A DNA stretch of 64,000 nt from Halomonas ventosae (GTDB lineage: Bacteria; Pseudomonadota; Gammaproteobacteria; Pseudomonadales; Halomonadaceae). Location of the stretch: NCBI RefSeq assembly GCF_004363555.1, contig NZ_SNZJ01000003.1:158019-222018 (forward strand), written 5' to 3'. Made by a program: the position numbers and the translations under genes. Each line of letters begins with the position of its first letter. Position 1 is the stretch's first letter. The notes below the pieces were generated by a model. That model saw nothing but the letters and a program-made list of their open reading frames with translations. It was not told where the DNA came from and searched no databases. Shown here piece after piece: positions 39,162 to 48,089 of this stretch.

Positions 39162-40265
39162 TCAGCGCCGGCGCCAGTCCAGCTCAAAGGGCGTGATGTT
39201 TCGGAAGGCGCCGGTCCTGGCCATCTCGCGTCGCAGGGGAAAGGCCGCCAGGGCATCAATCGGGTCGAGTTCCGCCAGCCGGTCGAAGTCGAGGCCCTCC
39301 CACGCCTCGCGGGTGACCTTGGCGCTGAAGAGGTAGCTGGCCTGCAACTCGCTGCCCTCCGGGGCCTCGACCCGGCGATGGCCGGAGACCAGCACGTGCT
39401 CGATGCCCGGCAGGCGGGCGAAGACCGTGCCCAGCACCCGGAAGGCCACGCCATGCACGTGGCGCCGGTAGAGCTCGCGCTGTCGCGTGGCGCCGAGCTT
39501 GCGCGGCGAGAGCTTGAGGCGCTTGGCGGGCATGGTCCAGTAGCGATCGGGCATCTCCTCCTCGCCCGGCAGGTCGATGTCCAGGGCAATGGTGCGGCAG
39601 TCGTCACTCAGCTCGAAGTCGACCAGCGTCTCGCGCGGCCAGTCGAGCTCGTCAAGTCGTTCGGCCAGCGTCTGCTGCATGGCCTCGGGGTCGCTCCAGG
39701 CCGCCACCTCCTCGCGCTGCTGACGCTCGAACTCGCGGGCATCGAACTGGGCCTTCTCCCACTCCCAGGCACGATAGGCCTCGGCATGCGACGCCTCGCG
39801 GCGAGCGTTCTCCCGCTCGAGCCGTGCCCGAGCCCCCGGCCAGAGGGCATGCCGCCAGTCGGGCCGTTCCAGGGTCACCGGCGCGGGAGGAGGCACCGGG
39901 TAGTTGCGCGGCTGATAGCCGGCCGCCTCCGGTGGCGGCGTCTGCTCGTGCAGGCGCTCGAGCCGGTCGAGCTCGGCATTGAGCAGCTCGCAGTGGGTCT
40001 CGAGCGCTGCGCGTATCGCCGCCTCGCCCTGGCGGCGCAGCGCCCGGGCCTCGGCATCGGGAAGGCGGCGTCCATCGGGATGCCGGTAGCGGATCTCCCC
40101 GCTGGCGGCGATGTCGAGCTGCACCGGCAGTTCCTCGCCGCTTTCACCGGTTGCCAGGGACAGATGGATACCGGGCGGGCCGACCGAGAGCCCGGGACGC
40201 AGCCTGCAGGTAAGGAGTCGCGCACCGGGTGCGAGACGAATGCGACGCTGGAAGCGAAACCCCAC
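39162..40265 (-). CDS. DUF4236 domain protein
   Basis: 367 residues from GTG 40265 (VGFRFQRRIRLAPGARL), with AGGGAGAGG upstream. The first 55 residues are a DUF4236 domain (SVGPPGIHLSLATGESG). The middle is a charged helical region rich in Arg/Glu (about 95-200), and the C-terminal 160 residues are alpha/beta (DFELSDDCRTIALDIDLPGEEEMP). The long open frame to 40445 is rejected because it breaks the domain start. DUF4236 occurs in small phage-like and chromosomal proteins of unknown function. Single gene. Confidence 0.8.
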   Translation of the reverse strand: MGFRFQRRIRLAPGARLLTCRLRPGLSVGPPGIHLSLATGESGEELPVQLDIAASGEIRYRHPDGRRLPDAEARALRRQGEAAIRAALETHCELLNAELDRLERLHEQTPPPEAAGYQPRNYPVPPPAPVTLERPDWRHALWPGARARLERENARREASHAEAYRAWEWEKAQFDAREFERQQREEVAAWSDPEAMQQTLAERLDELDWPRETLVDFELSDDCRTIALDIDLPGEEEMPDRYWTMPAKRLKLSPRKLGATRQRELYRRHVHGVAFRVLGTVFARLPGIEHVLVSGHRRVEAPEGSELQASYLFSAKVTREAWEGLDFDRLAELDPIDALAAFPLRREMARTGAFRNITPFELDWRRR

Positions 40266-40406
40266 GATGGCCTCTCCCTGATGACCGGTCCAGCTACAGG
40301 GTACTGCACTGGCCGTCATTCGTGACAAACGATGTGACCGCCGCAGGCAGGCTGGCCCCTCAGGCCCCGCGGCCCCGCCAGGAGGCAGAGGGGCACGCAC
40401 CAACGA

Positions 40407-40440
40407 AGACGCCGCCTGAAGCAGGGCTTCAGGCGGCGTT
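40407..40440. terminator. Terminator for tRNA-Ala
   Basis: Perfect 14-bp stem ACGCCGCCTGAAGC / GCTTCAGGCGGCGT with an AGG loop, 14 bp beyond the tRNA 3' end. TTTT follows on the plus strand and CTTCGTT on the minus strand. Confidence 0.8.
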
Positions 40441-40454
40441 TTCATGAAGGTGGT

Positions 40455-40530
40455 TGGTGGAGCCTAGCGGGATCGAACCGCTGACCTCAACACTGCCAGT
40501 GTTGCGCTCTCCCAGCTGAGCTAAGGCCCC
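40455..40530 (-). tRNA. tRNA-Ala (GGC)
   Basis: 76 nt including an encoded CCA. All arms pair: acceptor GGGGCCU/AGGCUCC, D-arm AGCUCAGCUGGGAGAGC, anticodon stem CAACA/UGUUG with loop CUGGCAG (anticodon GGC), and T-arm AGCGG UUCGAUC CCGCU. Confidence 0.97.
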
Positions 40531-40561
40531 ACGTCGTTCCCGCCTTGCGAGAACGAGGCGA

Positions 40562-40590
40562 ATATTACGCAGCCCATTCGGAAGCGTCAA
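40562..40590 (-). promoter_or_regulatory. tRNA-Ala promoter
   Basis: On the minus strand: TTGACG, exactly 17 bp, TAATAT, ending 31 bp before the mature tRNA 5' end. Near-consensus sigma-70 promoter. Confidence 0.8.
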
Positions 40591-40756
40591 CCCCATGAGG
40601 GCAATTTCACTCTTCTGCCTTGGGCCAATTCCCCTTAGGGACGGGATGTGCCACCCTACCGGGACTGATACCGAGCCGGCCGACATGTTGGCATCTTCTT
40701 AGCCAGGCCCCATCTCGGGACGACACTCACCCACCACGTTTTCAGGAGCGTCAGCG

Positions 40757-41404
40757 TTGATCAGGGTTCTCGTCGCCGATGACCATCACCTGGTACGGAC
40801 CAGCATCGCCCACCTGCTGAATGCCGAGCGCGGGATCCGCGTGGTCGGTGAGGCCGCGGATGGCGAGGAAGCCATCACCAAGGCGCGCAAGCTCGAACCG
40901 GACATCGTGCTGATGGATATCCGCATGCCCGGGATCGGCGGCCTGGAGGCCACCCGCAAGATCAACCGCTTCACCAGCGACATCCGCATCCTGGTGCTGA
41001 CCGCCTTCATCGAGGAGACCTTCGCCCAGCGCCTGCTCGAGGCCGGGGCCCACGGCTTCATCAGCAAGGGCTGCCAGCATGACGAGATGGTCGAGGCGAT
41101 CCACTGCGTGTTCGGCGGCAAGCGCTATGTCAGCCCCGAGATCGCCCAGCGGCTGGTGCTGTCGCGCATCGATGCGCCGGACAACCCCTTCGACCAGCTC
41201 TCCCAGCGTGAGCTCCAGGTGGCGATGATGGTCGTCAACTGCCAGCGCGTCGCCGACATCGCCGACCGCATGTTCCTGAGCCCCAAGACCGTCAACACCT
41301 ACCGCTACCGGATCTTCGAGAAGCTCGGCGTGACCTCCGATGTGGAGCTGACCCACCTCGGCCTGCGCCACGGCCTGGTCGACGGCTTCAGCGACGCTGA
41401 CTGA
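40757..41404 (+). CDS. gacA: Response regulator GacA/UvrY
   Basis: 215 residues from a TTG start (40757) with AGGAG eight bases upstream. Receiver with DDHHLVR, phospho-Asp in [20 protein letters not shown], and GFISKG; LuxR-type DNA-binding domain [12 protein letters not shown]...[19 protein letters not shown]. Very close to E. coli UvrY over the whole length. It answers the BarA/GacS kinase and activates small RNAs that titrate CsrA/RsmA; a candidate RNA of this kind is at 57.57 kb. Conserved neighbour uvrC follows. Confidence 0.97.
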
Positions 41405-41472
41405 GCGCCTTGCCGGGGGCTCCGATCTGGTAGAATGAGGCCTCCGCTTCCCGTCTACGGCACGCCGTTTCC

Positions 41473-43287
41473 ATGAGCTTCGATTCCCGCGACTTCCTCG
41501 GCAGCGTCAGCGAATCCCCGGGGGTCTACCGCATGCTCGACGAGCACGGCGAGACCCTCTATGTCGGCAAGGCGCGTCGCCTCAAGGCCCGCCTGGCGAG
41601 CTACTTTCGCGGTGCGCTCAACACCAAGACCCAGGCCCTGGTCGGCCGCATCGCCGACATCCAGGTGACGGTGACCAACAGTGAGACCGAGGCCCTGCTG
41701 CTCGAGCAGACGCTGATCAAGGAGCTGCGCCCGCCCTACAACATCCTGCTGCGCGACGACAAGTCCTACCCCTTCGTCTTCGTCAGCGACCGCCACCCCT
41801 TCCCCGCCCTGGAGTACAAGCGCGCCCGGGTGCGCCATAACGATGGCCGCTACCTGGGCCCCTACCCCAGCAGCGGCGCCGTGCGCGAGAGCCTGTCGCT
41901 GATGCAGAAGATCTTTCGCATCCGCAACTGCGAGGACAGCGTCTTCGCCCACCGCACCCGACCCTGCCTGCAGTACCAGATCCAGCGCTGCAGCGCGCCC
42001 TGCGTGGGCCATATCAGCGAGGCGGACTACCGGCGCGACCTCGAGCATGCAGTGATGTGCCTCGAGGGCAGGAGCGAGGCGGTGACCCGCGAGCTGAGCG
42101 AAGCCATGGAGGCCGCCAGCGCCCGCCTCGACTTCGAGGAGGCCGCCCGGCTGCGCGACCAGGTCCAGCACCTGCGCCAGATGCAGCAGCGCCAGTTCGT
42201 CGATACCGGCGGCGGTGACGCCGACGTCTTCGCCCTGGCCAGCCGTCCCGGGGCACTGTGCATCTCGGTGCTCACGGTGCGCCAGGGCCGCCTGCTGGGG
42301 GCCCGCCACCATGCCCCGGCCAACGGGCTCGACCTGGGCCCGGAGGCGCTGCTCGGCGACTTCATCAGCCAGTTCTACCTGGGCCAGGCCAGGGAGATCC
42401 CCGCGGAGGTGATCACCAGCCACCCGGTACCGGACGCCGACCTGATCGCCCGGGCGCTGGGGGAGCGCGCCGGCAAGCGCATTCGCCTGACCGATCAGGT
42501 CCGCGGTCATCGCGCCCAGTGGCGGGAGCTGGCCCGCACCAATGCCGAACAGCAGCTGGCCAGCCAGCTGGCCAGCCAGACCCAGCTCTCGAAACGCTTC
42601 GCGGCCCTGCGCGAGGCCCTGGCGCTCGAGGACACCCCCCGTCGCCTGGAGTGCTTCGACATCAGCCACAGCCATGGCGAGGCCACCGTGGCTTCCTGCG
42701 TGGTGTTCGACGAGAACGGGCCCCGCAAGTCCGACTACCGTCGCTTCAACATCGAGGGCGTGGCCGCCGGCGACGACTATGCCGCCATGCGCCAGGCCTT
42801 GATCCGCCGCTTCAAGCGCCTTGCCGACGGCGAGGGTGAACGGCCTGACATCCTGGTCGTCGACGGCGGCAAGGGGCAGCTGAACATGGCCCGGGAGGTG
42901 TTCGCCGAACTGGGCGTCAGTGGCGTCACCCTGCTCGGCGTGGCCAAGGGCACCACCCGCAAGGCGGGGCTCGAGACGCTGTTCGTCGAGACCGTCGACC
43001 GCAGCCTGGACCTCGACGGCGCCTCCCCGGCCCTGCACCTGATCCAGCACATCCGCGACGAGTCCCACCGCTTCGCCATCGCCGGTCACCGGGCACGCCG
43101 CGACAAGACAAGGCGCACCTCCACCCTGCAGGATATCCCGGGGGTGGGGCCGCGTCGCCGACGCGAGCTGCTGCGCTTCTTCGGCGGCCTGCAGGGGGTC
43201 AGGCAGGCGAGTCGCGAGGAACTGGCGCGGGTTCCCGGCATCAGCGCCACCCTGGCCGAGACGATTCATCGCGCCCTGCATGGATGA
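41473..43287 (+). CDS. uvrC: Excinuclease ABC subunit C
   Basis: 604 residues. It makes both incisions in nucleotide excision repair. GIY-YIG domain (GVYRMLDEHGETLYVGKARRLKARLASYF), Cys motif FRIRNCEDSVFA...RCSAPCVGHI, a UVR motif (LDFEEAARLRDQVQHL), an RNase H-like C-terminal nuclease (LECFDISHSHGEATVASCV, ILVVDGGKGQLNMA) and a tandem HhH (LQDIPGVGPRRRRELL, ARVPGISATLAE). A TAGAAT box lies 37 bp upstream. Confidence 0.98.
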   Translation: MSFDSRDFLGSVSESPGVYRMLDEHGETLYVGKARRLKARLASYFRGALNTKTQALVGRIADIQVTVTNSETEALLLEQTLIKELRPPYNILLRDDKSYPFVFVSDRHPFPALEYKRARVRHNDGRYLGPYPSSGAVRESLSLMQKIFRIRNCEDSVFAHRTRPCLQYQIQRCSAPCVGHISEADYRRDLEHAVMCLEGRSEAVTRELSEAMEAASARLDFEEAARLRDQVQHLRQMQQRQFVDTGGGDADVFALASRPGALCISVLTVRQGRLLGARHHAPANGLDLGPEALLGDFISQFYLGQAREIPAEVITSHPVPDADLIARALGERAGKRIRLTDQVRGHRAQWRELARTNAEQQLASQLASQTQLSKRFAALREALALEDTPRRLECFDISHSHGEATVASCVVFDENGPRKSDYRRFNIEGVAAGDDYAAMRQALIRRFKRLADGEGERPDILVVDGGKGQLNMAREVFAELGVSGVTLLGVAKGTTRKAGLETLFVETVDRSLDLDGASPALHLIQHIRDESHRFAIAGHRARRDKTRRTSTLQDIPGVGPRRRRELLRFFGGLQGVRQASREELARVPGISATLAETIHRALHG

Positions 43288-43353
43288 GTCAGGCCCCGGC
43301 GGATAGAATGAGGGGGTTTCCGGTATCTCCCAAGGCAAGGACCGCACCTCCCG

Positions 43354-43905
43354 ATGAACATACCCAACCTGCTCACCCTGGCCAGAATCCTCTTCATCCC
43401 GCTGCTGGTGGTGCTGTTCTACTTGCCCTTCGCCTGGAGCATGCCCCTGGCCGCCGCCCTGTTCGCCCTGGCCGCGGTGACCGACTGGCTCGATGGCTAC
43501 CTGGCCCGGCGCTGGGACCAGTCCACGCCCTTCGGCGCCTTCCTCGACCCGGTGGCCGACAAGCTGATGGTGGCCGTGGCCCTGGCCCTGCTGATCGAGC
43601 GCTACGAGGCCATCTGGCTGACCCTGCCGGCACTGGTGATCATCGGTCGCGAGATCGTCATCTCGGCCCTTCGCGAGTGGATGGCCGAGATGGGCAAGCG
43701 CGGCCAGGTGGCGGTCTCCTGGATCGGCAAGGTCAAGACCACCCTACAGATGGTCGCCCTGCTGGTGCTGCTGGCCTTCGCTCCCGGCACCCCCGTGGCC
43801 CTGCTGGGCGTGGCGACCCTCTACGTGGCGGCCCTGCTGACGCTCTGGTCGATGTTCCTCTACCTCAAGGCGGCCTGGCCGCACCTGAGCAGCTCGATGC
43901 GCTGA
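43354..43905 (+). CDS. pgsA: Phosphatidylglycerophosphate synthase
   Basis: 183 residues. CDP-alcohol phosphotransferase motif D-G-x2-A-R-x8-G-x3-D-x3-D is seen in [23 protein letters not shown]. Five to six membrane helices, inner membrane. It makes PGP from CDP-diacylglycerol and glycerol 3-phosphate. The order gacA/uvrY-uvrC-pgsA-tRNA-Gly is conserved in gammaproteobacteria. Confidence 0.96.
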
Positions 43906-43922
43906 AGGGTAGTGAAAAGTGT

Positions 43923-43950
43923 TTGACAGTCACCGACTTATCCGTATAAT
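43923..43950 (+). promoter_or_regulatory. Promoter of the tRNA-Gly cluster
   Basis: Perfect TTGACA (43923-43928), 16-bp spacer, perfect TATAAT (43945-43950), 15 bp before the mature tRNA-Gly. It should drive the tRNA-Gly, the repeat array and probably tRNA-Cys and tRNA-Leu, since no terminator was seen between them. Confidence 0.88.
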
Positions 43951-43965
43951 TCGCTCTCGAGTCAG

Positions 43966-44040
43966 GCGGGAATAGCTCAGTGGTAGAGCATCGCCTTGCC
44001 AAGGCGAGGGTCGCGAGTTCGAATCTCGTTTCCCGCTCCA
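43966..44040 (+). tRNA. tRNA-Gly (GCC)
   Basis: 75 nt with encoded CCA (GCGGGAA...TTCCCGCTCCA). Anticodon stem TCGCC/GGCGA with loop TTGCCAA, anticodon GCC; T-arm GCGAG TTCGAAT CTCGT. Confidence 0.97.
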
Positions 44041-44307
44041 GACTCAAGGCAACATCGTGAGTGGAAGAGTGCGACAGCGAGGGTCGCGAGCTGGAAGGCC
44101 AGCCCCGTCGAATCTCGTTTCCCGCTCCAGACTCAAGGCAACATCGTGAGTAGAAGAGTGCGACAGCGAGGGTCGCGAGCTGGAAGGCCAGCCCCGTCGA
44201 ATCTCGTTTCCCGCTCCAGACTCGCAAGCAGTAACAGAGTCATTGCGTGCGACAGCCAGGGTCGCGAGCCGGTGCGCCGGTCCGATCGAAGCTCGTTTCC
44301 CGCTCCA
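44041..44307 (+). repeat. Three 89-bp tandem units derived from tRNA-Gly
   Basis: Units at 44041-44129, 44130-44218 and 44219-44307, all exactly 89 bp. Each ends with the last bases of the tRNA-Gly just upstream (CTCGTTTCCCGCTCCA, including CCA) and also keeps its GGGTCGCGAG variable/T-stem. The acceptor 5' strand and the anticodon arm are lost, and 15-16 bases are inserted in the T-loop. Units 1 and 2 differ at one base; unit 3 differs at many. The insert forms a hairpin in all three, CTGG/CCAG in units 1-2 and CCGG/CCGG in unit 3, a compensatory change. GACTC/GAGT(C) at the 5' end also pairs. Not a normal tRNA; transcribed with tRNA-Gly. Confidence 0.92.
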
Positions 44308-44333
44308 TTCCCCACGAATGGCACGACTCATGA

Positions 44334-44407
44334 GGCTGGATGGCAGAGTGGTTATGCAGCGGACTGCAACTCCGTGTACGCCGGTTCGATTCCGACTCCA
44401 GCCTCCA
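44334..44407 (+). tRNA. tRNA-Cys (GCA)
   Basis: 74 nt with encoded CCA (GGCTGGA...TCCAGCCTCCA). Anticodon stem CGGA/TCCG with loop CTGCAAC, anticodon GCA. Confidence 0.96.
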
Positions 44408-44440
44408 TCATTCCCCTAGCTGCCCGCTCGGAACCGTGCC

Positions 44441-44527
44441 GCCCGGATGGCGAAATTGGTAGACGCAAGGGACTTAAAATCCCTCGGTGGCAACACCGTG
44501 CCGGTTCGAGCCCGGCTCCGGGCACCA
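44441..44527 (+). tRNA. tRNA-Leu (TAA)
   Basis: 87 nt, class II with a long variable arm (TCGGTGGCAACACCG) and encoded CCA. Anticodon stem GGGA/TCCC with loop CTTAAAA, anticodon TAA. Confidence 0.96.
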
Positions 44528-44585
44528 GCTTTCCTGCACCCTTCCGGCAAGCGTCGGGCGCGACCCTCCAACGGGACGCCGTGAC

Positions 44586-45746
44586 ATGATCCTGCCGCGC
44601 CTGCGCGACCCCTACTTCAACTATCAGCATCGGCGCAAGCTGCACGTGCTGCGCATCGTGCTAGCCCTGTGCCTCACCTTCGCCATCATCGAGTTCTTCG
44701 CCATCCAGCACAGCGGCTGGGCGCTGGTCAGCACCATCATGGTGATGGGCAACCTGCCGCACATCGGTGGCGTGCTGGACAAGGGGCGCCAGCGCCTGCT
44801 GGGCACCCTGCTCGGTGCCGGCTGGGGCCTGCTGCTGATCCTGCTGCCGCTGCCCTGGCCGCCGCTCGTCCCCCTCGCCACCCTCGCCGGCATCGCCGTC
44901 GCCACCTGGTTGACCTTCAGCAACCGGCACGGCTACAGCGGCCTGATGTTCGCCATCAGCCTGCTGCTGGTGGTCGGCGACGGCACCCAGGAGCTCGATA
45001 TCGCCCTGTGGCGCGCCTTCGACGTCCTGCTCGGCACCCTGGTGGGTATCGCCGTCACGGTGCTGGTACTGCCGCAGAAGGCCACCGACATGATGCGCTT
45101 CATGCTGGCCGACAACCTGGACCGCATGGGCCGCCTCTACCATGCGCACACCTCGGCCACGGCGGCCCCCGACATCGATACCCGCGAGATGCTCAAGGCC
45201 ACCAGCAGCCTGCTGGTCAAGCAGCGCGGCCTGGTGGATGCCATCCATCGCGAGCGACGGCTGACCCGCCATGAGCTGGACGACCTGATCTCGCTGCAGC
45301 GACGCATGCTCTCCACCATCGAGCTGCTGCTCGAGACCCACTGGAGCAGTCGCGATGGGCACGAGCGCATCGACGCCATGACCGGCCTCCGCGAGGAGCA
45401 GCACACCCTGGCCCGCGGCATCGGCACCCTGGCCTTCCAGGTACGCACCGGCCAGCCGGTCGACGTGACCATCACCCCCTTCGAGCTGCAGCGCCACGCC
45501 GAGCTGGCCGGCAATGCCCGCTCCGCCGATGGCCGCATGCTCTTCAGCCCCAGTGGCTACCTGTGGCTCAATCGGGAGCTTGCGCGGCTGACCGCCGACC
45601 TCACCCGGCGCCTGGGCGGCCTCGAGCGACTGCCCAGCCGGCGGCTGCGTCGCCGGGCACCCCACCATGGGCTCACCGAGGATGCCTCGGCGATCGTGCG
45701 AGCCACCACGCAAGAAGGAAAGGCAGATGACAGACGGCAAGCATGA
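44586..45746 (+). CDS. FUSC-family membrane protein
   Basis: 386 residues from ATG 44586. Six hydrophobic segments lie in the first 165 residues (VLRIVLALCLTFAIIEFFAI, LLGTLLGAGWGLLLILLPL, GLMFAISLLLVVGDG), with the FUSC-type motif LDKGRQRLLGTLLGAGWG, followed by a long soluble helical domain. The class includes AaeB/YccS-type exporters of aromatic acids and related compounds; the substrate is unknown here. A GTG five bases upstream in another frame is ignored. Its end overlaps nadB by 20 bp. Confidence 0.8.
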   Translation: MILPRLRDPYFNYQHRRKLHVLRIVLALCLTFAIIEFFAIQHSGWALVSTIMVMGNLPHIGGVLDKGRQRLLGTLLGAGWGLLLILLPLPWPPLVPLATLAGIAVATWLTFSNRHGYSGLMFAISLLLVVGDGTQELDIALWRAFDVLLGTLVGIAVTVLVLPQKATDMMRFMLADNLDRMGRLYHAHTSATAAPDIDTREMLKATSSLLVKQRGLVDAIHRERRLTRHELDDLISLQRRMLSTIELLLETHWSSRDGHERIDAMTGLREEQHTLARGIGTLAFQVRTGQPVDVTITPFELQRHAELAGNARSADGRMLFSPSGYLWLNRELARLTADLTRRLGGLERLPSRRLRRRAPHHGLTEDASAIVRATTQEGKADDRRQA

Positions 45747-47307
45747 GGTGCTGGTCATCGGCGGCGGGGTCGCCGGGCTGGTGCTGGCACTGGAAGTGGC
45801 CGACCATCGCCGGGTCACGCTGCTGCGCCCGACCAGCGACGACCAGGGTGCCAGCCGCTGGGCCCAGGGCGGCATCGCCGCCGTGCTCTCCCCCCAGGAC
45901 GACATCGAGGCCCACGTGGCGGACACCCTGGTGGCGGGCGACGGCCTGTGCGACGAGCGGGCGGTGCGCTTCACCGTGGAACAGGGGCCATCGGCCATCG
46001 AGTGGCTGGTGTCACTGGGCGTCCCCTTCACGCCCGACGCGAGCGCCGATGCCGGCTATCCCTACCACCTCACCCGCGAGGGGGGCCATGGCGCGCGGCG
46101 TATCATCCACGCCGACGACGCCACCGGCCGTGCCGTCGTCGAGACCCTCAAACAGCATGTGGAGGCCCACCCGAACATCAGGCTGTGCGGTGACCTCACC
46201 GCCATCGGCCTGATCGGTGACGGCGAGGGCCACTGCCGCGGGGCACGCTGCCTGGATGCGGATGGCCGGCTGCAGGAGCTCGCGGCCGAGGACACCGTGC
46301 TCGCCACCGGCGGGGCCAGCGGCCTCTATCGCCATACCACCAGCCCCCAGCCGGCCAGCGGCGAGGGCATGATGATGGCCGCCGAACTCGGCGCCGAACT
46401 GATGAACCTGGAGTTTCAGCAGTTCCACCCCACCTGCCTCTATGACCCCGAGGGCCCCGCCTTCCTGATCAGCGAGGCGGTTCGCGGCGAGGGCGGGCTG
46501 CTGATCAACGCCGCAGGCGAGCGCTTCATGCCGGCGGTGGACCCTCGGGCCGAGCTGGCGCCCCGCGACATCGTCGCCCGGGCCATCGACGCCCAGATGC
46601 AGCGCACCGGCACCGACCATGTCTACCTGGACATCCGCCACCTCGGCGAGGCCGCTATCCGCCACCACTTCCCGACCATCCATGCCCACTGCGCCCGTCG
46701 CGGGCTGGACATCGTGCACCAGCCGATCCCGGTGGTGCCGGCCGCCCACTACAGCTGCGGGGGGGTCACCACCGATCTCGGGGGCGCCACCACGGTCCCG
46801 CGGCTGCACGCCATCGGCGAGGTGGCCTGCACCGGCCTGCACGGCGCCAACCGCATGGCCAGCAACTCCCTGCTGGAGTGCCTGGTCTATGCCCGCAGCT
46901 GTGGGCGACGGCTGCGTTCCGCAGCCCCTTTGCCGACGGCCGAGCTGGCCCCGGCGCACTGGGGCCGGCAGCCGGTCGCCCTGGACGACATCGGGGAGAT
47001 CCGTGACGCGATGCGCCAGCTGATGAGTGCCCGGGTGGCCATCGTGCGCACCGACCAGGGACTGGACGAGGCTGCCCGAGGCCTCGCGCAGCTGCACCGC
47101 CGGCTCGCCCCCCGCATGGCGGACGCCGCGCCCACGATTGCCCTGGCGAACCTCTGGCATGCGCTTCGCCTGGCGCGCCTCACCGTGGCCTGCGCCCGGG
47201 CACGGCGCGAATCCCGCGGCCTGCACTTCAACCCGGACTGCCCGGTGCATGGCGAAGCCATGCCACGCCCCTCGCGGATCCACCTGCAGGACCTCGAGGC
47301 GATCTGA
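45727..47307 (+). CDS. nadB: L-aspartate oxidase
   Basis: 526 residues from ATG 45727, with AAGGAAAGG before it. It oxidises L-aspartate to iminoaspartate, the first step of de novo NAD synthesis. FAD motif VLVIGGGVAGLVLALEVADH, SRWAQGGIAAVL, TREGGHGARRIIHADDATGRAV, LATGGASGLYRHTT and HYSCGGVTTDLGGATTVPRL match NadB and distinguish it from succinate dehydrogenase (no covalent-flavin His). AlphaHelical C-terminus normal. Confidence 0.97.
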   Translation: MTDGKHEVLVIGGGVAGLVLALEVADHRRVTLLRPTSDDQGASRWAQGGIAAVLSPQDDIEAHVADTLVAGDGLCDERAVRFTVEQGPSAIEWLVSLGVPFTPDASADAGYPYHLTREGGHGARRIIHADDATGRAVVETLKQHVEAHPNIRLCGDLTAIGLIGDGEGHCRGARCLDADGRLQELAAEDTVLATGGASGLYRHTTSPQPASGEGMMMAAELGAELMNLEFQQFHPTCLYDPEGPAFLISEAVRGEGGLLINAAGERFMPAVDPRAELAPRDIVARAIDAQMQRTGTDHVYLDIRHLGEAAIRHHFPTIHAHCARRGLDIVHQPIPVVPAAHYSCGGVTTDLGGATTVPRLHAIGEVACTGLHGANRMASNSLLECLVYARSCGRRLRSAAPLPTAELAPAHWGRQPVALDDIGEIRDAMRQLMSARVAIVRTDQGLDEAARGLAQLHRRLAPRMADAAPTIALANLWHALRLARLTVACARARRESRGLHFNPDCPVHGEAMPRPSRIHLQDLEAI

Positions 47308-47326
47308 CCCCCGGGCTGATGGGGCC

Positions 47327-47725
47327 CTAGGGCAACGGCAGCAGCTCTCGGCGCAGGCGACGCAGCGACTCCGCGTCGCTGCTGTCGGGCCACAGCCAGA
47401 GGCGCCGCCCCTCGAGCCTGAGCCCGATCAGCCAGGGCCCGAGGTAGTCGCAGCGCAGGCTCACCGGGCGCCAGGCCTGGACGGCGCTGTCGCGCCAGGA
47501 CCACTCCACGCCACCCGCCGCCTTCGGCGTGCCCCGCAACTCGCCACGCGGGCGCCGCAGGGCCAGCGTCGCCAGCACCCCGCCAAGTACCCCTGCCGCC
47601 AGCAGACCGGCCCAGGGCGGGGCCACCACCGCTACCAGGCCGACGACCGCCGCGGCGCATAGCCCATGGGCGGCCAGCGACAGCCTAGAGGTTGCGATAG
47701 CGATCGTTGTCGGTGGTCTCGGCAT
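47327..47725 (-). CDS. YgfX-like inner-membrane protein
   Basis: 132 residues; the ATG (47725) lies inside the 3' end of sdhE, with a 41-bp overlap in another frame. Two membrane segments (LAAHGLCAAAVVGLVAVVAP and PWAGLLAAGVLGGVLATLAL) and a C-terminal soluble part ending LWLWPDSSDAESLRRLRRELL, the conserved tail of the YgfX (CptA) family. In E. coli ygfX and sdhE (ygfY) are adjacent and were described as a possible toxin-antitoxin pair. Start position is uncertain because the overlap is unusually long. Confidence 0.75.
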   Translation of the reverse strand: MPRPPTTIAIATSRLSLAAHGLCAAAVVGLVAVVAPPWAGLLAAGVLGGVLATLALRRPRGELRGTPKAAGGVEWSWRDSAVQAWRPVSLRCDYLGPWLIGLRLEGRRLWLWPDSSDAESLRRLRRELLPLP

Positions 47726-47978
47726 GCTCGACGATCATCTTGACGATGCGGCGCCGCGACGGATCCTCGGGCCACTCGCGGCGCATCAGCCAGGCAAACA
47801 GGTCCTGGTCCTCCTCCTCGATCAGTGACCGGAAGGCCGCCTGGTCCGCCTCGTCCAGGTCGCCATAGCACTGCTCGAGGAAGGGGATCAACAGCAGGTC
47901 CAGCTCCCACATGCCGCGACGCGAATGCCAGTAGAGGCGCTTGCGGAGGGTGGCTTCCGGAGACGAATCGTCGTTCAA
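47685..47978 (-). CDS. sdhE: FAD assembly factor SdhE
   Basis: 97 residues from a TTG start (47978), with GAGG six bases upstream. No ATG or GTG fits. RLYWHSRRGMWELDLLLIPF contains the RGxxE motif that contacts the flavin site of SdhA, and EDQDLFAWLM is also conserved. It helps attach FAD covalently to succinate dehydrogenase and fumarate reductase. Followed by ygfX as in E. coli; nadB, another flavoprotein of the same superfamily, converges on the pair. The open frame continues far upstream, but the rest is not protein-like. Confidence 0.9.
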   Translation of the reverse strand: MNDDSSPEATLRKRLYWHSRRGMWELDLLLIPFLEQCYGDLDEADQAAFRSLIEEEDQDLFAWLMRREWPEDPSRRRIVKMIVEHAETTDNDRYRNL

Positions 47979-48089
47979 GGTGGGCCTCGTTGGGTCGGAT
48001 GAGTGTGCGGCCAGTATACCCGAGCCCCGCCCCGCCGGCAGCCCGCCGCCTCCGCGCGCTCCGCCGCCTCGAGAAAAGGTCGTAGTGCG

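Follow-up and report, generated by a model that had tools for sequence, protein, structure and literature searches.

Behind the tRNA-Gly(GCC) gene of Halomonas ventosae lie three copies of the gene's own 3' end, and the question raised by this locus is whether such copies are decaying duplicates or RNAs kept by selection. In the window, i.e., the whole 64,000-nt stretch of DNA analysed, the parent tRNA-Gly(GCC) gene occupies 43966..44040 on the + strand (called by ARAGORN; 73.6 bits with the Rfam tRNA model). It is followed on the same strand by unit 1 (44041..44129), unit 2 (44130..44218), and unit 3 (44219..44307), and then by tRNA-Cys(GCA) (44334..44407) and tRNA-Leu(TAA) (44441..44527), both called by ARAGORN; uvrC and pgsA are located upstream, giving the order uvrC-pgsA-Gly-Cys-Leu. 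The coordinates and a repeat finder agree on three units of 89 bp each, and relative to copy 1, in the register set by the repeat finder, identity is 99% for copy 2 and 71% for copy 3, matching the original prediction of two near-identical units and a diverged third. A sigma-70-type promoter match, TTGACA-16-TATAAT (43923..43950, + strand), agrees with the consensus at 12/12 positions, ends 15 nt ahead of the tRNA, and is the sole match in a 1-kb scan (0.2 in shuffles). Given this perfect match, the finding of no terminator-like site in 43700-44700, and the tRNAs downstream, the tRNA-Gly and the three units are likely co-transcribed. By eye, GAGTC at 43958-43962, just 5' of the tRNA, and GACTC at 44041-44045, just 3' of it, could lengthen the acceptor stem of the precursor, a pairing that could compete with the leader stem of unit 1.

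The tRNA 3' 16-mer occurs exactly four times in the window, against 0.04 occurrences expected at two or fewer mismatches. Units 1, 2, and 3 retain 22/22, 22/22, and 21/22 nt of the tRNA 3' end, respectively, as had been claimed, and the one mismatch in unit 3 lies outside the last 16 nt. In alignment, the units match the 3' part of tRNA-Gly with the T-loop interrupted (GCGAG-[CTGGAAGGCCAGCCCCG]-TCGAATCTCGTTTCCCGCTCCA), and the expected T-loop insert is present in the form GCGAG-[insert]-TCGAATCTCG. All three units are degenerate copies of the 3' part of tRNA-Gly, with a module of ~17 nt inserted into the T-loop. The T-arm of unit 1 spans 44086..44118, with a stem formed by 44086-44090 and 44114-44118 and a loop enlarged by the insert. 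Its module (44091..44107; columns 22-38 of our A2 alignment, described below) consists of the hairpin CTGG-AAGG-CCAG followed by CCCCG, and the module of unit 2 (44180..44196) is identical. In unit 3, the module (44269..44285; the same columns) consists of the hairpin CCGG-TGCG-CCGG followed by TCCGA, and the predicted change from CTGG/CCAG to CCGG/CCGG is thereby seen in the sequence. The anticodon arm, described earlier as lost, is so only in part, since the 3' strand of the anticodon stem is kept. The 5' leader pairing GACTC/GAGT is found in all three window units; among 13 distinct leaders at this locus, comprising those of related genomes and the three here, 10 begin with GACTC or GACTT and have GAGT downstream, 2 have TTGGCTC/GAGTCAA, and 1 has neither (pairings judged by eye). 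Neither ARAGORN nor the Rfam tRNA model calls the window units as tRNAs, and the cloverleaf of a functional tRNA was not found in them.

The genome itself holds one further unit, on another contig inside a Glu-Gly tRNA array; among the 22 loci read from it, with 52 ARAGORN tRNAs (58 Rfam tRNA matches genome-wide), such units were found only at tRNA-Gly(GCC). On contig C23 of the same genome (locus L096, ~305-395, - strand), a degenerate copy of tRNA-Met(CAT) follows that tRNA and a terminator-like hairpin; the copy is without the 5' acceptor strand, carries an insert in the anticodon loop, and is followed by another terminator-like hairpin (by eye).

A blastn search of 90 genomes of the genus gave matches in 46. 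Units were taken if they exceeded 60 nt and followed the preceding tRNA or unit at a distance of 140 nt or less; the length filter reduced 99 units to 96, corresponding to 89 distinct sequences. The A2 alignment comprises 67 distinct single-insert cores, with 22 of the 89 left out for extra inserted bases or duplicate cores, and a second, related insert is present in some units. The covariance model derived from these 67 cores, holding the pairs 23-32 and 34-38 and omitting the crossing pair 28-37, scores the last 60 nt of units 1, 2, and 3 at 78.3, 78.3, and 80.7 bits. Because tRNA-Gly itself scores up to 52.8 bits over 44 nt, the threshold for a unit was set at E up to 1e-9. The search of Halomonadaceae genomes with such a model, the check proposed together with the original prediction, matched units family-wide: they occur in 171/275 family genomes, in 14/24 genera of the family, and in 62/90 genomes of the genus (hand counts). 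Outside the family, the sample of the order (at most 372 genomes) contains 9 genomes that pass E 1e-9 (hand count), and units were read in two more genomes of the order (G529 and G628). In the samples of the class and phylum (369 and 398 genomes), none outside the order passed E 1.5e-9 under strict filters and a model tied to the tRNA-Gly end, so the spread is a lower bound. Scanning named genomes with a pattern yielded 26 stretches, from Halomonas, Litchfieldella, Salinicola, Modicisalibacter, Alcanivorax, Alloalcanivorax, Oceanobacter, Thalassolituus, Saccharospirillum, Aliikangiella, and a Pseudomonadota bin; it was by this pattern that the Aliikangiella units were detected. Among the best-ranked literature matches listed, no paper describing these units was found by title or abstract.

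Runs at genus loci consist of one unit in 63 cases (3 of them end matches without a unit), two in 7, three in 4, four in 1, and five in 2. In Aliikangiella marina (locus L176, 248-947), seven model matches spaced 106-107 nt apart stand behind tRNA-Gly, the last two scoring lowest. The identical unit length emphasised in the original prediction holds locally (three times 89 bp) and not elsewhere, as the 96 genus units span 75-107 nt. When all fetched loci are taken together, unit ends lie 67 to 198 nt (median 86) beyond the end of the preceding tRNA or unit, and the kept length can no longer be taken as a sign of selection. A peptide-coding role was rejected, with 38/96 unit lengths being multiples of three and no indication of a reading frame.

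As a match was the reason for fetching a locus, the following figures describe the units rather than all tRNA-Gly genes. Among 163 distinct units, 157 chain back to tRNA-Gly(GCC); five of the other six lie at locus edges, and one (L161) looks coding-like by eye. A terminator-like site between the tRNA and the first unit is absent in 113/120 cases and present in 7/120, another tRNA follows within 200 nt downstream of 79/163 units, and a terminator-like site lies within 150 nt downstream of 45/163. Judged from this arrangement, transcription together with the tRNA is likely in most loci. The last 16 nt are identical to those of the unit's own tRNA in 120/157 units and differ in 37/157, with 10 distinct tRNA-Gly(GCC) sequences in the loci compared. 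A variable base in the 3' strand of the T-stem, G or C between genomes, agrees with the parent tRNA in 149/157 units; this agreement would fit a shared processing signal and, equally, homogenisation by unequal crossing-over, and identical 3' ends can arise without function by the latter route. In Saccharospirillum (L182, - strand), there are two units with a terminator-like hairpin after each (by eye), from which duplication may place some units behind a terminator. At another locus (L153 in genome G200, - strand, repeat ends 1301 to 1589), tRNA-Gly is followed by 72-nt copies of its 3' half that include the anticodon, have an intact T-arm, and carry no module; these copies are perhaps a precursor state of such units.

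The evidence that carries the argument comes from paired changes. In a mutual-information ranking over the 89 distinct units, four complementary pairs are among the top five column pairs, namely 23-32 of the hairpin, 34-38, the crossing pair 28-37, and 18-48 of the T-stem (A2 numbering), and the fifth is a neighbouring, non-complementary pair. Across the 67 cores of A2, 95.5% of the cells are paired against 87.6% in shuffles, and 81 cells are changed on both sides against 27.6, with 0/500 shuffles reaching the observed value in either case; when partners were slid by 1-3 columns, 25-50% were paired. Two of five summary measures (pairs changed on both sides and further pair types) do not beat the shuffles, and the shuffle tests ignore the relatedness of the sequences. 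In A2, three pairs of the module alternate between C-G and U-A, and intermediates are almost absent. This behaviour is repeated in a second set, made up of 69 distinct units that come from other genera and families and have no member in common with the first set. For this set, 73 of 192 matches, with spans of 57-61 nt, were kept, and same-locus repeats, tRNA-Gly matches, and long-insert units were left out. Watson-Crick pairing is present there in 69/69 units at 23-32 (UA 55, CG 14), in 68/69 at the crossing pair 28-37 (CG 60, UA 7, GC 1), and in 65/69 at 34-38. At 28-37, window units 1 and 2 have G-C, in contrast to the C-G or U-A of nearly all other units.

Pairing in the T-stem is looser. 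In A2, its columns 17-21/45-49 are paired in 90.4% of cells and pair 18-48 changes on both sides, with 18-48 and 21-45 each unpaired in 13/67 cores; in the second set, 18-48 is paired in 49/69 and unpaired in 20/69 units, and 20-46 is unpaired in 15/69. The pair 28-37 crosses the hairpin and is pseudoknot-like. The covarying columns read as a T-stem, a tetraloop hairpin, and a one-pair triloop YCCRR, the CR of which would pair with the YG of the tetraloop; the three covarying contacts of the module cross and may not all form at once. Loop column 26 varies, hence a GGA at the loop, of interest for RrB-like binding to CsrA, is not conserved. In the otherwise variable leaders, C(UNCG)G hairpins, an RNA-type loop, occur in 8/82 distinct sequences against 0.33 in shuffles, with 2/96 units dropped because the module regex missed them. 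A scarcity of G-U pairs was considered as a sign of action at the DNA level and rejected, as both sides mostly change together in the stems of the neighbouring tRNAs at these loci too; among the variable pairs of the Gly, Glu, Cys, Leu, and Met tRNAs (5-15 sequences each), the G-U-rich exceptions were Glu 13-23 and Cys 26-42. Taken together, the paired changes in A2 and in the second set constitute strong comparative evidence that the units are under selection on RNA structure, and the proposal of such selection in place of decay is borne out.

Predictions from energy models are less distinctive. Single-unit folding of the window units is not exceptional against shuffles (z of -1.55, -1.78, and -0.84), the RNAalifold consensus predicts the 4-bp hairpin alone, and for units 1 and 2 the T-arm fold lies ~11 kcal/mol above the minimum-energy fold, which is a different rod.

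On balance, we lean towards reading the units as tRNA-linked repeats, i.e., structured small RNAs carried in the tRNA-Gly(GCC) precursor and released by processing. A unit would be transcribed within this precursor, and its repeated 3' end would serve as a second processing site, such that the nucleases acting on tRNA 3' ends would cut at both edges and free the unit (89 nt here); by analogy with RrB of E. coli, tRNA 3'-end processing is probably the route of release. The freed RNA would fold as a T-arm with its loop replaced by a small knotted module, in which the hairpin CYGG-NNYG-CCRG is followed by YCCRR and the CR pairs back with the YG of the loop, and it would end in an acceptor 3' strand without its tRNA partner strand, followed by CCA. 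One guess at its action is that a tRNA-end enzyme or an RNA-binding protein would recognise it as a mimic of the T-arm and CCA; the decoy for RNase P/Z or RNase T and the small-RNA sponge of the original prediction are further candidate roles. The evidence is strong for structure and weak for function.

The same structure might merely limit harm. With two copies of the tRNA 3' strand competing for one 5' acceptor strand, units would survive only if folded away, and they would have no positive function. In folding predictions, the 5' acceptor strand indeed prefers the 3' strand of the unit in 110/118 tRNA-plus-unit transcripts, and when 60 of 95 transcripts were refolded with controls, the own pairing of the tRNA was 0.08 with real units and 0.00 with shuffled ones. 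However, the preference is generic, as shuffled units with the last 22 nt kept show it in 180/180 folds and E. coli repeats in 10/11, and it therefore says little; the folding covers secondary structure, without tertiary contacts or co-transcriptional order. A deletion would suffice to remove a harmful repeat, but the module persists in several families. We consider this account unlikely. An exchange of acceptor strands between tRNA and unit as a special mechanism was rejected because shuffled units and E. coli repeats behave alike. Somewhat less unlikely, though still doubtful, is that the units are cis-acting elements for processing or spacing of the tRNA-Gly precursor rather than released RNAs with a job of their own. 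Their position directly behind tRNA-Gly(GCC), often ahead of another tRNA, and the agreement of the variable T-stem base with the parent tRNA point that way; against it, 28/90 genus genomes lack a unit at the E 1e-9 threshold (hand count) and, where a genome does have units, several of its tRNA-Gly copies are not followed by one; processing therefore does not need the unit everywhere.

The repeated sequence itself suggests another origin, a scar or decoy of an attachment site for integrative elements (ICEs), because ICEclc integrates, according to passages in PMC6563109 and PMC8704644, in the 18-bp 3' end of a tRNA-Gly gene, named as tRNA-Gly(GCC), the very stretch repeated by the units; the 7/120 first units behind a terminator-like site would also fit. 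In 12 genus genomes (11 in one contig), however, no PF00589 match at E up to 1e-12 was found close to the tRNA-Gly/unit locus, the nearest match on the same contig being ~16 kb off (in G002), and every unit match adjoins a tRNA-Gly match, with no solitary copies. An attachment-site remnant with an integrase nearby or with solitary copies was thus not found in these genomes and was rejected. Carriage by phages or plasmids is not convincing either: in phage records no match covers even half of the query, plasmids gave one near-full-length match in a 1.8-Mb Halomonas replicon, and two IMG/VR pattern matches have no tRNA in their stretch. The paired changes of the module and the UNCG hairpins of the leaders also speak against a scar, and we regard this origin as quite improbable. 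An rtT query matched five Salmonella-labelled phage records.

The preferred reading, that of tRNA-linked repeats (TLRs), takes its name from E. coli, in which TLRs were first described in 1978. Passages in PMC8144298, citing Rudd 1999, count 22 TLRs at ten loci, situated behind the parent gene in tRNA or rRNA operons, with 18-19 bp identical to the parent 3' end and one to five repeats per locus, and present them as having had no known function before that study. The units described here likewise stand directly behind a stable-RNA gene (157/163 at tRNA-Gly(GCC), in a putative operon), the window units share the 18-19 bp with the parent 3' end, and the genus set has one to five units per locus; the seven units of A. 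marina exceed the E. coli range. The parents differ, being Tyr, Arg, and Lys tRNAs and 5S rRNA in E. coli and tRNA-Gly(GCC) here.

The resemblance to rtT that had been proposed stands for the layout, on comparison with 11 TLRs of E. coli K-12, and membership in RtT itself is not supported. The Rfam RtT model (RF00391) has no match in window positions 40000-48000 with a cutoff of E 5 or, with a cutoff of E 0.1, in L010 and a further five unit loci, and as a positive control it gives 4 matches in E. coli. RtT resembles the present units in its tandem arrangement behind a tRNA, there tRNA-Tyr, and its insert stands between a copy of AAGGTTCGA (T-stem and T-loop) and the tRNA 3' end. In the 11 Tyr, Arg, and Lys TLRs read by eye, a structured-looking insert precedes the repeated 3' end, as here, but the E. 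coli insert is larger and of other sequence, with CCCGNAGGG in 11/11 before the repeated 3' end, and the CCCGNAGGG module is absent by eye from the Gly units compared. In 6/11 of them, AGGATAACG lies opposite the ATCC in the 3' strand of the T-stem, and AAGGTTCGA is retained ahead of the insert in the 2 Tyr units (both by eye), so that the T-loop region in E. coli also appears interrupted; this is clear for Tyr and less so for Arg and Lys. In loci L133, L145, and L151, tRNA-Glu is followed by a long copy of its own 3' end, in which the insert resembles that of E. coli rtT (by eye); in L145 and L151, this repeat stands beside Gly units of the present kind, and the Rfam RtT model has no match there.

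Two further systems invite comparison. RrA, RrB, and RrF are described in passages of PMC8144298 and PMC9245011 as TLRs that are transcribed and processed and bind Hfq and CsrA in vitro. Like the present units, they are repeats in a stable-RNA precursor, and their release as discrete RNA is reported (PMC8144298); unlike them, they have 5S rRNA, and not tRNA-Gly, as parent. RrB, behind 5S rRNA, is described in the same source as a 173-nt RNA that starts 3 nt after 5S and ends 3 nt after the repeated 3' end, the end cuts being ascribed by its authors to RNase E. The 3'ETS-leuZ sRNA sponge of E. coli comes from the glyW-cysT-leuZ transcript, in the same conserved order pgsA-Gly-Cys-Leu, and the E. 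coli order pgsA-glyW-cysT-leuZ matches that of the window; however, 3'ETS-leuZ is the 3' trailer of leuZ and not a repeat, and in E. coli the glyW gene was not found to be followed by a repeat of its end.

The present family is diverse, with 89 distinct units in the genus, while its base pairs are kept, which provides comparative evidence that TLRs can be selected as RNA; its compact fold gives a target for mutations, and Halomonas and Alcanivorax are hosts for deletion. A wider proposal, which we offer tentatively as possible rather than expected, is that gammaproteobacterial TLRs, these and those of E. coli, might be of one functional kind, passengers of tRNA maturation that would mimic a T-arm with a CCA end, have the T-loop swapped for a lineage-specific module (here knotted and 17 nt long), and act in trans on a T-arm-reading enzyme or protein. 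As far as the sequences compared allow us to judge, the layout of the tRNA-Gly units is shared with the TLRs of E. coli, and the module is new.
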